Source: a virus
Direction: 5' to 3' (one strand)
Virus record (IMG/VR): IMGVR_UViG_3300022413_000039
Span: 1 to 23,831 of that record
DNA: 23,831 bases
In this document: positions 2,272-23,831 of the stretch, piece by piece
Layout of the letters: the number at the start of each line of letters is the position of its first letter
Numbering within the stretch: the first letter of the stretch is position 1
Position numbers and translations under genes: made by a program
Notes under the pieces: generated by a model
What the model was told of the DNA's origin: nothing
Databases searched by the model: none
Seen by the model: only the letters and a program-made list of their open reading frames with translations

Positions 2272-2721
2272 TCAGACCTTAGAGCTGTTTACAGCCCGGC
2301 TTCGTCTACGACCGTTGGCGATATCGCTGACGTGTTGGTGCGAGATCCCAAGCTCCCGTCCAAGCGCCCTACAGCCTTCTCCGGCTAGTCGACGGCGCCG
2401 GATCTCATCCACTACGCGGTCTGAGATCTGGGTCTTGGAGACATGACGGCCCTTTTCCATCATGTCGCGAGTGTTGTCTTGGGCTGTGCCAAGGAAGAGG
2501 TGCTTTGGGTTGACGCAAGAAGGCTCATCGCAGCTATGGCATACGAACATCCCGGCAGGTATCGGGCCAAACTCAAGCTCCCAAGCAAGCCTGTGTGCGG
2601 CCTTCTGTCGACCCTCTACGGTAAGACGCCCGTACCCTTTCGGCAGCCGCGCTCCCGTCCAGATCCAACAACCACCCTGGCCGGACCTTTCGGTCCTGCG
2701 GTTGAGGCGCTCCCAGCTCAA
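2272..2721 (-). CDS. Free-standing HNH homing-type endonuclease with C-terminal HTH
   Basis: Residues 18-92 match the HNH_3 pattern: CWIWTGA, a GYGRL strand, [22 protein letters not shown], then a Cys-Val-Asn-Pro-Lys-His-Leu block and a [10 protein letters not shown] tail. His43, His62 and His74 are candidates for the catalytic and metal-binding residues. Residues 100-137 look like a helix-turn-helix ([15 protein letters not shown]), which would give sequence-specific DNA binding. The start is TTG overlapping the previous stop (TGATTG), supported by an AGGGG ribosome site; no better start is present. It interrupts a run of virion genes and has no virion role. Such enzymes spread by cutting genomes that lack them. 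No intron folding space exists around it, so it is intergenic. Its DNA lacks the GAGCTC words common further right. Confidence 0.88.
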
Positions 2722-18413: not shown

Positions 18414-18674
18414 TTACTCGTCAGTGTGTTTCGACGCGAGGTGGTTATTGAGACCACTCTCGGTTTTGTATTCCTTGTCGCAGTGCGGACACGAGTACAG
18501 GTCAGGGGCCTCGGGGGCGATGGGTGTCGGGGGTGAAATCTTCACGTACATCGCGCGACCCGAGCTAACGTAAGCTCGAGCCTGATTCATCGATAAACTG
18601 ACGACTTCCCCGGGGCGACCATAGCGTCCAGGAATCTGACATCCGTGGATGAGCTTGACCTGTACTCGTGACAT
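18414..18674 (-). CDS. Small head-region protein with a C2H2 zinc finger
   Basis: 86 residues. The start is the ATG that has AGGAGGT eight bases upstream; a much longer upstream frame is a shadow of the capsid gene. Residues 1-45 resemble a small head protein type with a 'VKLIHG...Y..GEVVSLS...A..YVSSG.A.YV' pattern, found between capsid and connector genes. Residues 60-83 are a complete C2H2 finger: Cys62-x2-Cys65-x12-His78-x4-His83 with the usual aromatic (Tyr69) and Leu75 at the hydrophobic core. Zinc fingers of this kind bind DNA or proteins. A role in head completion, in capsid binding or in late regulation is possible. Confidence 0.8.
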   Translation of the reverse strand: MSRVQVKLIHGCQIPGRYGRPGEVVSLSMNQARAYVSSGRAMYVKISPPTPIAPEAPDLYSCPHCDKEYKTESGLNNHLASKHTDE

Positions 18675-18721: not shown

Positions 18722-20182
18722 CTACAGGAAGGTCACGTCCACGAATGAGGGTGGCCGGTAGATGGTCTGGCAGAGGCGCTCCTCGGCCCGAATCATCACC
18801 ATGTTCCTTCCGAAGAAGTCCTTGTAGTTCTCGCTGATCCTGACCTCGGTCTGCTCGCGGTCGTGGATCGCCGAGCCGAGCCCGAAGGCGCCGACAAGGC
18901 CGGTGAGGGCGTCGATTGCCGTGGTCAGCACGACCGGAGTCCGCCAAACGCGCATCCCAACGCCGCCGCTGTCGGGGACGTTGTTCCAGATGTATCTGTC
19001 CTGGGCGTCCTTCAGGAGCTCGATCGTCTCCCAGTCGTTCGGGTTGAGAACGATTCCGTCCACTGGCAGGTGGGCGTTCTGGCTGATCGTCATCGCCTTG
19101 CGAAGCGCGTCCAGCTTGGTGTCGGGCGCAGCCGCCTGGGTCAGGGTGTTGATGTCCGGGTCGGACAGGATACCGCTTAGCTGAGCGCTCGAGCCGTCCC
19201 CGTAGAGCATCTGTCGCTCCTCGGAGAGGATCATGCCCTCGGTGAGGCGGCCGTTCACGTACGCCTGGAGACCCGGCGCGTCGGACAGAATCTGGCGCGA
19301 ACCGGGGATCATGTGGGCGAGGGTCTTGATCGCCTCGGTCACCAAGGTGAGCTGCAGTTCGGCGCTGGGCTTCAGGCCGAGCTCTGGGGTGAACACGAAC
19401 GTGGTGGCGGCGATGCCGACGCCTGCAGCGTGTGTGTTCGCGATACCGGCCGTGACGGTCAGCTCATTTAACGTTGTGTCGACACCAGAGGCGGCGATTA
19501 CAGCTGTTTCCTCTCCTCCGCCGCCCGGGTCGAGGGTGATGGTCTGTCCATCATAGAATCCCTGGGCATTGTCGACCGTGAGAACAGTCTGCGCCGCGGC
19601 CTCGCCTGCAGGCATTGTAGTAAACAGCTGGTGGAACGCCGTTTCCTTGACGAACTCGATGGAGCCCTGGGAGGTCGGGACGGTCGGAATGATGTTCCGA
19701 AGCCGGGGCGCCTGCAGCGGTGTGCTCATGACACCGGCGATTCGGGTCGGGTCGATCAGCGCACCGGCAGATCCGAGGGCCCCGGTCGCGCTCGAGAAGT
19801 CCTTTCGGAGGTACGGCGCCAGCGTTTTTAGCCGAATGGGCTTGGTGCCGTACTCGTTGTTGGCAATCATCTCCTTGAACTGCGGGCTCTCGGTGATGAT
19901 CTCGCCGATGCTGGGCAGCGGCACGCTTCCGGGCAGGACCGAAGGCGGCTCGTCGAGCTTCACCTCGATATTTCCGAGGTGCTGTTTGAGCTCGAGAATG
20001 GTCGCGCCGAGGTCGTCGATCCGGTCTTCGACCTGCTTGATCTGCTTGGACGTGCTCGACTGGGTACCACCGAGGTCCCGAAGCTCGTCGCGTTGCTTGT
20101 TGATCAGGCCGTTGATGTCCTCGAGGGCCGTCTGAAAGTGCTCGGTCGCTTGCTTCAGCGTTTCGGGAGTCGGTGCGCTCAT
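18722..20182 (-). CDS. Major capsid protein, HK97 fold, with E-loop insertion
   Basis: 486 residues, ATG in an ATGA overlap with the protease stop. Residues 1-75 are a coiled coil (delta domain-like scaffold), normally removed on maturation. From about residue 125 the body aligns with HK97 gp5: SAGALIDP, then GSIEFVKETAF, AIKTLAHMIPGSRQILSDAP, an ERQMLYGDG block, GIVLNPNDWETIELLKD, a WRTPVVLTTAI strand, and RAEERLCQTIYRP at the end. Between VKETAF and AIKTLAH, in the E-loop region, about 70 residues (197-266) form an added beta unit with GFYDGQTITLDPGGGGEETA. HK97 has only about 25 residues there. Capsids would carry this unit on the surface. The capsid cross-link Lys has no clear counterpart. 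Confidence 0.95.
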   Translation of the reverse strand: MSAPTPETLKQATEHFQTALEDINGLINKQRDELRDLGGTQSSTSKQIKQVEDRIDDLGATILELKQHLGNIEVKLDEPPSVLPGSVPLPSIGEIITESPQFKEMIANNEYGTKPIRLKTLAPYLRKDFSSATGALGSAGALIDPTRIAGVMSTPLQAPRLRNIIPTVPTSQGSIEFVKETAFHQLFTTMPAGEAAAQTVLTVDNAQGFYDGQTITLDPGGGGEETAVIAASGVDTTLNELTVTAGIANTHAAGVGIAATTFVFTPELGLKPSAELQLTLVTEAIKTLAHMIPGSRQILSDAPGLQAYVNGRLTEGMILSEERQMLYGDGSSAQLSGILSDPDINTLTQAAAPDTKLDALRKAMTISQNAHLPVDGIVLNPNDWETIELLKDAQDRYIWNNVPDSGGVGMRVWRTPVVLTTAIDALTGLVGAFGLGSAIHDREQTEVRISENYKDFFGRNMVMIRAEERLCQTIYRPPSFVDVTFL

Positions 20183-21219
20183 TCTACGTTTGCTCCTACG
20201 ATCTCAGCCATTCGGCGTGTTTGCTTCGCCGCGTACGTCGCGAAGTGCAGAATCGCGGCCTCTTCCGTCAACGAATCAACCTCGTCCTGCTCCCCTCGCG
20301 TCGGGATGAGGAGGCCGGGGTCTTTGAAACTCATCTTCGTGAAGTAGACGTCGAGATGACACCTCAGAAGATCTTTGGCGGCGCTGGTTAAGTCGAGGTC
20401 CTTAAGGCGGGCTCTGGCGTCCATGCAGGCCGTGGGTACGACCTGGTAGGTGCCCGAGCTCGTCAGGTTTGCAATTTGGAGAACGGGCTTTCCGGACTCC
20501 ACCCAGAGAAAGGCCTGTGGGTGGGAGTCGTCGAGGGGCTCGAGCTCGGCATCGGCGGGGGCGAGCTCGAAGAACTTGCAGTCTACCGGACCGTCCGGGC
20601 ACTTCGGCGACTTGCGGGGAAGCAGCCCAAACCCGCCGAGGCTGTCATACAGCTTCATAGCCATCCCGAACGGCCCGATCTTTCGGAGCTCGTCGGCGAA
20701 CTCCTGGTCTGAGTATCGGCCATGCAGAAGGCTCTTCACTCCCTCGATCGTCGCGAGCTCGTTGGCTGCGAACGTGACGGGTGAGAACTCGTAGAGCCGG
20801 TTGACCTTGTGGATGTCGGAAACCGGCCAACCATTCTGCGTCTCGTCCTCGGACTCCTGGCCCTTGGCCGTGAAACCGATGGACGTACGATCGATGACGC
20901 CATCCCGCATGAGATTGCGGGCGTCATTCCCGCTCGTGCAGTCGGTGAGCTTGGCCTTGAAGAACAGACCGTGGTCGTCCTCGTGGAGGACGACCGGCTT
21001 GCCGATCGGGTCGTCCTGTCTGTGCTGCCACAGGACCTTGATCTGGTTCGAGGGGAAGTGGGCGGCTATGGTCTCGGCGAAGGCGCCCTTGTGGATCCGG
21101 TCATTCTGGTCGTCGACGTTGCCGAACGTCGAGGCGTAGCCCCAGAATTCGCGGGTATCCGCGTCGGATTCTATCTCCGGAGGGGACTCTTTGAGAATGA
21201 GCGCGCTGCGTTCAGTCAT
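20179..21219 (-). CDS. HK97-type prohead protease with C-terminal extension
   Basis: 346 residues. The first 165 are a U35-type serine protease: FWGYASTFGNVDDQNDRI, VLWQHRQDDPIGK with His66, then VIDRTSIGFTAKG with Ser113, and LYEFSPVTFAANE with Glu144; these three are the expected catalytic residues. It removes the scaffold domain of the capsid protein. Residues 166-346 are an extra region: a helix, then a stretch with six Cys (CPDGPVDCKFF), strands, and a C-terminal helix. Typical family members end near residue 200, so this tail is additional. The ATG has no ribosome site in front. A promoter-like pair lies upstream in the gap. Confidence 0.9.
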   Translation of the reverse strand: MTERSALILKESPPEIESDADTREFWGYASTFGNVDDQNDRIHKGAFAETIAAHFPSNQIKVLWQHRQDDPIGKPVVLHEDDHGLFFKAKLTDCTSGNDARNLMRDGVIDRTSIGFTAKGQESEDETQNGWPVSDIHKVNRLYEFSPVTFAANELATIEGVKSLLHGRYSDQEFADELRKIGPFGMAMKLYDSLGGFGLLPRKSPKCPDGPVDCKFFELAPADAELEPLDDSHPQAFLWVESGKPVLQIANLTSSGTYQVVPTACMDARARLKDLDLTSAAKDLLRCHLDVYFTKMSFKDPGLLIPTRGEQDEVDSLTEEAAILHFATYAAKQTRRMAEIVGANVE

Positions 21220-21306: not shown

Positions 21307-22767
21307 CTAGTTTAGTGCTGCGCCGTTCAGGGGACCTTCCTCCTCGAGCTGATCGTCCTCATCCTCTTCTGGTTCGGGCTCTTCCGAGTTGACGGGGACT
21401 CCGGTCGGGCCGACGGCGACGAACCGATTTTGAACGTAGCTGACATCCCAGCCGGGAAATTCGGAGAAGCCGAGACCGAGACGAGCATTCACGTCCTTGA
21501 ATGGGACGCCCATCCGCCAAGCGCGCTCCCCGAGGTCGATCTTCTGTCTGAAGAGTGGTGTGAGGGCCTCGACCCGAGTCAGGTCGTATTGGAGCCGGAT
21601 ATCCTCGCCGAAGTCGGGGGCGAGGTCGAGGTTCCACCGGTCCCGGATGTCGGTCAGCAGCGGGATGACCGTGTCGAGCCAGAAGATCAGTCGTGCGGTC
21701 TCGATGTTGGCCAGCGTCGCCTGGTCGTAAATTCCGACCATGGGCGGCGGGACACCGAAGGCGGCGCAGATCTCCTCGCGGGAGAACTGGCGTCCCTTGA
21801 TGTAGTCCATATCGACCGGGGACAGGGACATCTGCTGCCAGGTGGCGTCGTTGCCGAGCACCCAGGGTATCCAGGCGTTCTCGGCACCTTGGTACTGGTC
21901 CTGGATCATGTCCACGGCCTGGTCGAACTGGGACTGGGACATCGGGAATTTGTAGGTGAACACGCCGGAGGCGACAGCTCTGTTCTCGAGGCTGTGCTTC
22001 GCCCAGTTAGACGACTCCCGGTCGGTGTCGACGGCTCGCCCACCGGGCTCGAGGTTGGCCATCCCCCAGTAGGGGTTCATCGGGTCAGTGAACTTCTGGT
22101 GCACGACGTTGAACGCCCGGATCCGCTTCTTGACGCCGTCGACGTTCCATTCGTAGTCGCGAACGATGCTCCGACCCTTGGTTGGAACGGGCTTGATGAC
22201 GTCTGGGTTGATGATCCAGAGCTGCTGGGCTGGCTGCCTGACGCCCCCGAACGGACGCGGCCTTATCTTGGTCTGTATGCAGTTGCCCGCCAGGTGCAGG
22301 TGCAGGCTCAGCAGCTCCATGTAGTCCTGGCGCGACATTGTGGGATTGGGCTTCCGGATGAGCTCCTTGAGCGGGTGCTTGCCGGTGATGGGGTTGAAAT
22401 CTTCGTCGGGATCACCGGTGCCGACCATCCAGGGGACGGAGGCGACTGCTTTGGCGATCCGGTAGTTGCAGGCGAACACCCAGGTGTTGGCACGGTATCC
22501 GTGGGTCACAGCGTTGCGCGTCGTCCAGTGGGTGAACGTCGGCTCGTTGGCCTGGCTGCGCGGGAGAGTGTCGGCGATGGTGATTGACTTGAGCTTGGAG
22601 GCCACAGACGCGGGTACGTGCTTCGCCCAGTCGTCGAGCGAACCCACGCTGATGGGTCCCGAGGTCGGCGCCTGCCTCACCTCGTGGACGGTCTTGGTTG
22701 TCGGCTTGGCGCGACGGACGGTGACCGCGGCGTCGGTTTGAGCGGTAATCTCCTGCAACCAGTTCAT
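21307..22767 (-). CDS. Portal protein, HK97 family
   Basis: 486 residues if started at the ATG of the ATGA overlap with the terminase stop, which has GGAG six bases upstream; a longer 490-residue start four codons earlier has a poorer site. The typical portal order is visible: WVFACNYRIAKAVASVPW, MSRQDYMELLSLHLHLAGN, an AQQLWIINPDVIKPV block, then the diagnostic ICAAFGVPPPMVGIYDQ with TLANIETARLIFWLDT near residues 333-365. The C-terminus is a long acidic tail (EEPEPEEDEDDQLEEE). The portal makes the dodecameric DNA gate. It is followed by a small noncoding gap, then protease. Confidence 0.93.
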   Translation of the reverse strand: MNWLQEITAQTDAAVTVRRAKPTTKTVHEVRQAPTSGPISVGSLDDWAKHVPASVASKLKSITIADTLPRSQANEPTFTHWTTRNAVTHGYRANTWVFACNYRIAKAVASVPWMVGTGDPDEDFNPITGKHPLKELIRKPNPTMSRQDYMELLSLHLHLAGNCIQTKIRPRPFGGVRQPAQQLWIINPDVIKPVPTKGRSIVRDYEWNVDGVKKRIRAFNVVHQKFTDPMNPYWGMANLEPGGRAVDTDRESSNWAKHSLENRAVASGVFTYKFPMSQSQFDQAVDMIQDQYQGAENAWIPWVLGNDATWQQMSLSPVDMDYIKGRQFSREEICAAFGVPPPMVGIYDQATLANIETARLIFWLDTVIPLLTDIRDRWNLDLAPDFGEDIRLQYDLTRVEALTPLFRQKIDLGERAWRMGVPFKDVNARLGLGFSEFPGWDVSYVQNRFVAVGPTGVPVNSEEPEPEEDEDDQLEEEGPLNGAALN

Positions 22768-23831
22768 GCTCGTCTCCATGTGGCCTTAGTCGTTGTCCCG
22801 GTCGCGGGGGGCGTCTGGACCTTGTTCCGCTGCGGTTTCTTCGCGCGCGCGATCATTAATATGTGCGGCTGGACATTGGCGAAGCACAGTACACAGGAAT
22901 CTGCGTGGTCTGGCGAGGCTATCCGCCGCTGACGACGCATCTTCTGTTTGCTCTCGACCCGGATACGGCGGTCTTCGGCGTACTCGAGGAGCGGCAGCGA
23001 CAGCTGGGAGATGGTGTCGTTGGCCCAGTCGGGTAGGCTGATCATCTCTGAGGCATCATAACTATTGATACCCTGAACGTGCTCGTAGGTCTTTTCGAAG
23101 CGCCGGCGCGCCGCCCACCACATCTCGGCCCTGGTGTTCTTGAACCGGTCGAAGGCCGGGCGGTCTGGATCGTCATCGTAGAACGTGCTCGAGGGCGAGC
23201 TCCCGGAGTCGATGCCGATGAACTGGATCTCGGAGAGCATCCCCATCTCCTCGAGCTCGTCCATCTCGGCCTGGATGGGTCCCGCTACCCCGCCACCTAC
23301 CCCGCCACGGTCGTAGTAGACGACCGAGGCCCCGTCCTCTCGGGCGAGGTCGCGAGCTCGGATGGCGCTCTGGTGAGTGTTTAGCCCGTGCCAGCTCTCG
23401 ATCCTCGTGAGTACCGGACCGATCCGGTGGGTGTAGACCGTCAGGTTCGTTCCCGAGTCTGCGACGTCGAGGCCGGCGACCGACTCCCCGATAGGCTCGA
23501 GGTCGATCTGTACGGCCGCGCGTACCCAGTCCTGTGGAATGACACACGCCTCACCGAGCGCGCTGTAGCTGCGATCGATTTCCTGGGCGACGACGAGAGG
23601 CGAGTACTTTCGGCACATCTCGTCGTACCATTCTTGATTCTTCCGGGGGTCGTCCTCCCACTTGAAGATGAAGACCTCGACGTTCCCGGAGAACCGGTCT
23701 CGGGCGAACTGGTTGCCCATGCCCTTGGGGGTCGATACCTTGACGACGACGTCTGAGTTGTTCGAGACCGCGGCGTCGACGCCTTCGTCTCGCGGGATCG
23801 ACGCGGCCTCATCTATAAAGTAGATACCTGA
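22764..23831 (-). CDS. terL: Terminase large subunit, C-terminal part (5' end outside window)
   Basis: The frame is open to the right edge and gives 355 residues, so the N-terminal part with Walker A is missing. The visible part starts at IYFIDEAA, the Walker B strand with catalytic Asp-Glu, and continues to STPKG, the coupling motif. The nuclease domain follows: VAGLDVAD (Asp about 122 of the partial protein), VVYYDRGG (Asp about 174) and SPDHADSCVLCFAN (Asp about 309/312), the three acidic positions of an RNase H-like fold. It packs DNA into the prohead and cuts it. The tail is basic (AKKPQRNK). It overlaps the portal start by ATGA. Confidence 0.93.
   Translation of the reverse strand, partial: SGIYFIDEAASIPRDEGVDAAVSNNSDVVVKVSTPKGMGNQFARDRFSGNVEVFIFKWEDDPRKNQEWYDEMCRKYSPLVVAQEIDRSYSALGEACVIPQDWVRAAVQIDLEPIGESVAGLDVADSGTNLTVYTHRIGPVLTRIESWHGLNTHQSAIRARDLAREDGASVVYYDRGGVGGGVAGPIQAEMDELEEMGMLSEIQFIGIDSGSSPSSTFYDDDPDRPAFDRFKNTRAEMWWAARRRFEKTYEHVQGINSYDASEMISLPDWANDTISQLSLPLLEYAEDRRIRVESKQKMRRQRRIASPDHADSCVLCFANVQPHILMIARAKKPQRNKVQTPPATGTTTKATWRRA

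Follow-up and report, generated by a model that had tools for sequence, protein, structure and literature searches.

In HK97-type shells, the E-loop of the capsid protein crosses the outer surface of a neighbouring subunit. An E-loop lying over its neighbour in this way is described, for example, in PMC10276861. Folded domains inserted in this loop are already known from T4, crAssphage, the Family 2B encapsulins and, probably, Vibrio phage VP1, and the major capsid protein described here represents a further group. Its gene lies in IMG/VR virus record IMGVR_UViG_3300022413_000039, of which positions 1 to 23,831 were analysed (the window), a 23.8-kb stretch that encodes the head and tail of a contractile-tailed phage.

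In T4 gp23, the I domain of the E loop sits on an adjacent subunit within its own capsomer (PMC9958956) and folds from one helix and six strands (PMC10172136). The I domains of T4 gp23* and gp24* are, like the window insert, E-loop insertions, but the T4-type fold is absent from the window insert, which is predicted to be all-beta, with no helices in either of our two models. In crAss001, the beta-barrel of the E-loop joins an auxiliary protein in a three-fold assembly and contributes to wall stability (PMC10172136); this I-domain (residues 79–180 of the PhicrAss001 major capsid protein) is larger, at about 100 residues, belongs to another capsid protein lineage and had no direct match among the structural matches listed for the window insert. 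In Family 2B encapsulins, a cNMP-binding domain is inserted in the E-loop of an HK97-fold shell protein (PMC8346489). These resemble the window protein in carrying a whole domain at this place, but the domain is a different one, the shell is a cellular compartment and there is no cross-linking. The capsid proteins of HK97 (gp5) and D3, the latter of which cross-links (PMC12749128), share with the window the core fold, a delta-like coiled coil, the cross-link Lys and Asn, the catalytic Glu and a protease gene directly upstream, but lack the E-loop insertion.

A beta-barrel inserted in the E-loop

The capsid gene is an intact open reading frame, within which the E-loop and its insert are arranged as follows.

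18722..20182, minus strand: major capsid protein of 486 amino acids, HK97 fold, with an N-terminal coiled-coil scaffold (delta-like) region
19616..19663, minus strand: first (outgoing) E-loop strand, residues 174–189, from the AlphaFold2 model and aligned with HK97 ALEYVREEVF
19388..19615, minus strand: inserted small beta-barrel domain in the E-loop, residues ~190–265, from the AlphaFold2 model and homologous inserts in 19 loci
19331..19366, minus strand: second (returning) E-loop strand, residues 273–284, from the AlphaFold2 model

Both profile matches and the core fold place the protein among HK97-fold capsid proteins. It matches Pfam Phage_capsid PF05065 (E 4e-38; 131.8 bits against a cutoff of 24.2) and PHROG 10, major head protein (E 2e-59), and a sequence search of solved capsid proteins matched D3, phiXacJX1 and HK97 (gp5, E 8e-44). 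The AlphaFold2 model of the whole protein, built like all our structure predictions as a single chain and based on a 70-sequence alignment, has a mean predicted local distance difference test score (pLDDT) of 88.7 and a predicted template modelling score of 0.74. The nearest solved structure is HK97 prohead I (Z 28.1, 2.3 Å, 261 of 268 HK97 residues aligned), although the model is about 75 residues longer in the E-loop.

The extra residues are bracketed by the two E-loop strands, which are long in the model, and form an all-beta small barrel (pLDDT 94–97; strands at residues 200–202, 214–217, 225–235, 240–243 and 256–259). Modelled separately with 20 homologues, the insert adopts the same fold (pLDDT 92.6), as a domain that folds by itself. 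The model and the collinear alignment put it in the E-loop and not in the A-domain. The first-pass annotation, made from the DNA letters, was right to read this stretch as a compact beta domain in the E-loop. Its coordinates for residues 197–266 (19385–19594) convert correctly and the extra stretch is real, but the model sets the limits at about 190–265. HK97 is also shorter here than the 25 or so residues then assumed: 12 residues separate F156 from K169, as against 86 between F184 and K271 in the window, a net gain of 74.

We compared 15 cultured-phage capsid proteins and then about 150 viral and genomic loci. At the insert site, the cultured relatives carry between about 6 and 30 residues, and in whole-protein searches of cultured phages the alignments passed over the insert. 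In four of the loci compared (L002, L003, L004 and L009; Brevibacterium phage Cantare and Gordonia phages), the E-loop tips are moderately longer, at about 16 to 30 residues, and hold no folded domain. After removal of near-copies, homologous inserts were found in 20 non-redundant capsid proteins, namely that of the window and those of 19 metagenomic viral loci, with the common pattern GQ..I.V.N..GF..GQ.I.L....E...I..VD....T.T. Because these 19 loci were assembled independently, chance, a frameshift or an assembly error can be excluded as the origin of the insert. Nor is the split in the HK97 alignment an artefact, as the insert can be aligned through all 20 proteins, with both flanking strands intact. 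The insert-bearing HK97-type group is known here solely from metagenomic contigs; in IMG/VR, neither the capsid protein as a single query nor the portal brought up close relatives, which were found by alignment-based scans.

The cross-link residues are kept

The first-pass annotation had suggested that domain contacts could replace the covalent cross-links of HK97. The residues concerned align with the following positions in the window.

19370..19372, minus strand: Lys271, equivalent of HK97 cross-link Lys169, from the alignment, with the numbering checked against the HK97 K169Y mutant (2fs3)
18803..18805, minus strand: Asn460, equivalent of HK97 cross-link Asn356, from the alignment
18782..18784, minus strand: Glu467, equivalent of HK97 catalytic Glu363, from the alignment

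Lys271 lies six residues past the barrel. In HK97, K169 is the Lys of an ALKP motif, which reads ALYP in the K169Y structure; this comparison puts K169 at the LKP Lys, kept as K271, and we rejected a loss of the cross-link Lys (K169 to L268). All 20 insert-bearing proteins retain the three residues K271, N460 and E467. The barrel thus shows no sign of having replaced the cross-link, and the simplest reading, from the alignment, is that both are used. What could speak for a substitution is the hydrophobic pocket of HK97 (V163, M339 and L361), which aligns with M190, E443 and R465 of the window and in which two residues differ (M339 to E443 and L361 to R465). D3, however, also has an Arg at the L361 position in our alignment, and D3 is a cross-linking phage (PMC12749128). 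With the three residues kept throughout the 20 insert-bearing proteins, substitution for covalent cross-linking is very unlikely.

An E-loop barrel paired with a kept cross-link triad is new to us. These uncultured phages have HK97-type capsid proteins that join two reinforcement strategies usually treated apart, an inserted domain and cross-link residues.

Structural relatives of the barrel

Compared with solved structures, the isolated domain matched the tail tube of Mystique (Z 11.3), the tail tip of Chi (Z 10.8), the tailspike of LKA1 (Z 10.2), a Klebsiella capsule lyase (Z 10.2) and the baseplate of JBD30 (Z 10.0). Independently, a sequence profile of the inserts picked out two of these phages again, through the tail tube of Mystique (E 0.0016) and the distal tail protein (Dit) of Chi (E 0.0018). 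The same barrel occurs in many predicted viral proteins. Among capsid proteins, the domain matched residues 64–151 of the major capsid protein of VP1, a Vibrio cholerae podophage (PDB 9in6; Z 9.5, 78 residues, 27% identity). The rest of VP1 is distant from the window protein (14% identity in Foldseek) and was missed by the sequence profile; because the whole chain aligns collinearly, the residue range fits an E-loop insertion, which it probably is. In phages, this barrel type recurs as an added module, in tail tubes and tailspikes, in Dit proteins and in at least one further capsid protein.

Searches with the insert by sequence gave little. No Pfam family scored above its cutoff, and PHROG 14242 (major head protein) matched weakly (E 6e-4). 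A tblastn search of 50,697 phage records with the window insert had a single match, a structural/tail-fibre protein of Synechococcus phage S-WAM1 (E 3e-3), and other insert queries had none.

The structural background is set by the I-domain of the P22 procapsid coat protein, which belongs to the six-stranded P22/crAss barrel type (Z 8.1; nuclear magnetic resonance structure, Z 7.4, 2.4 Å root-mean-square deviation over 73 residues) and the N-terminal barrels of F1-ATPase (Z 6.6–7.0). The barrel therefore belongs to a widespread fold class, and sharing a fold does not by itself prove function. The P22 matches could be taken to mean that the barrel is a folding aid that sets assembly or capsid size and has a minor role in the mature shell. 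We consider this quite unlikely: the P22 domain is in the A-domain rather than the E-loop (PMC10172136), a Z of about 8 barely exceeds that of unrelated small barrels such as those of F1-ATPase, and insert-free relatives assemble the same head type.

The barrel as a candidate cement domain

From the path of the E-loop across the neighbour's outer surface in HK97-type shells, we infer that a barrel at its tip would lie outside the shell, next to the local three-fold region and to the site of cross-linking. Each barrel could there add non-covalent contacts within or between capsomers, supplementing HK97-style cross-links without replacing them. We consider it probable, by analogy with the I domains of T4 and crAss001, that the barrel serves as cement or decoration, built into the capsid protein and exposed on the outer surface. 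This is supported by its placement in the E-loop, the confidently predicted barrel, the HK97 core match, the fold matches, the kept cross-link residues, the 20 homologous inserts at the same point and the faster divergence of the insert, which is expected for a peripheral domain (mean identity 0.32, compared with 0.46 for the core).

Three points weigh against a cement domain. The surface contacts are extrapolated from a single-chain model. Close relatives (L026, L028, L029, L129 and L181) manage without the domain, which is thus dispensable for this head type. In two insert-bearing loci, L021 and L107, the capsid gene is followed by an extra gene of 158 amino acids, which means that the insert is no simple stand-in for other accessory proteins.

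The rapid divergence of the insert would also suit a module for surface display or binding, for example to glycans or cell surfaces, in place of cement, as would the presence of the same barrel type in tailspikes, Dit proteins and tail tips. Against this, no ligand-binding motifs were recognised in the insert, its most conserved positions (G208, F209, G212, Q213, T242 and T265) resemble turn and core residues, and the structural matches include tail-tube and capsid proteins in which the barrel is structural. We regard display as the main role as unlikely and favour the cement or decoration domain.

Possible gain, loss and exchange of the insert

Some relatives have the insert and others lack it, a distribution that the first-pass annotation had proposed to look for. 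The five close relatives that do without it have only about 6 to 8 residues at the site. Natural insert-bearing and insert-free relatives offer a clean set with which to test the contribution of the E-loop domain to the shell. In a related capsid lineage (L112, L121, L147 and L179), a different insert occupies the same E-loop point, and the occurrence of two kinds of insert at a single site among related lineages is likewise new to us. The L179 insert resembles PF16190, E1_FCCH (E 2.7e-4, below the curated Pfam cutoff), a family to which the window insert has no Pfam match. A profile comparison of the barrel and FCCH-type inserts gave a probability of 64% over 49 columns, and the two may be distantly related. 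The insert marks a tolerated insertion site in the capsid family of the window.

In a maximum-likelihood tree of the core, from which the insert was left out, the window falls in a clade of 12 insert-bearing proteins (support 100/99), nested in a group of 23 (88/92) that includes three insert-free proteins; the FCCH-type proteins fall in a separate group. On this tree, the barrel insert must have changed three times, but a single change is enough if only well-supported branches are counted; loss or repeated gain is therefore likely, though unproven.

Movement of the domain as a module has suggestive support. Insert and core identities correlate weakly (r 0.28), and the insert data reject the full core topology in the approximately unbiased test (p 0.001 for all 20 proteins, 0.006 for the 12-protein clade). 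L100 pairs with L104 in the insert tree and with the window in the core tree. Incongruent trees and a different module at the same site in a related lineage agree with movement, but the focused test of the pairing of the window and L100 gave p values from 0.014 to 0.21 according to the alignment method. With an insert alignment of 79 columns and a focused test that depends on it, exchange of the module between capsid genes is only suggested. More broadly, we tentatively propose, as possible rather than probable, that capsid genes gain, lose and exchange small barrels, which are akin to tail-protein modules and come in at least two sequence types, and that they retain the cross-link chemistry throughout.

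Head genes and neighbouring features

Besides the major capsid protein, the window encodes a portal, a prohead protease, connector proteins, a tail sheath, a tape measure and baseplate proteins. The order portal, protease, capsid is the one expected for PF05065 capsid proteins.

21307–22779: portal (PF04860)
20179..21219, minus strand: prohead protease (Peptidase_S78; PF04586, E 5e-29), directly upstream of the capsid gene
19952..20167, minus strand: N-terminal coiled coil of the capsid protein, residues 6–77, two long helices in the AlphaFold2 model, resembling the HK97 delta (scaffold) domain

By analogy with HK97, the capsid protein would be cleaved after this coiled coil.

The small gene that follows the capsid gene (18414–18650, minus strand) encodes a C-terminal C2H2 zinc finger (PF12171/PF00096, above cutoff). 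Six relatives (L101, L104, L028, L124, L026 and L181) share this slot, where the product ends in a C2H2 finger (above cutoff in L028, weak in others) or in a Rho_N domain (L026 and L181); the L104 gene has a weak DUF7210 match. The gene looks like that of a head-module protein whose nucleic-acid-binding tail can be swapped. The 158-amino-acid genes of L021 and L107 lie directly after the insert-bearing capsid genes (about +98 to 572 and +94 to 568 after the capsid stop, respectively). The L021 product has no Pfam matches, and these genes possibly encode a separate decoration protein. Among the tail genes, an HNH endonuclease (2272–2721, minus strand; PF13392, E 1e-15), whose tail is a weak match to a helix-turn-helix, is possibly a homing endonuclease.
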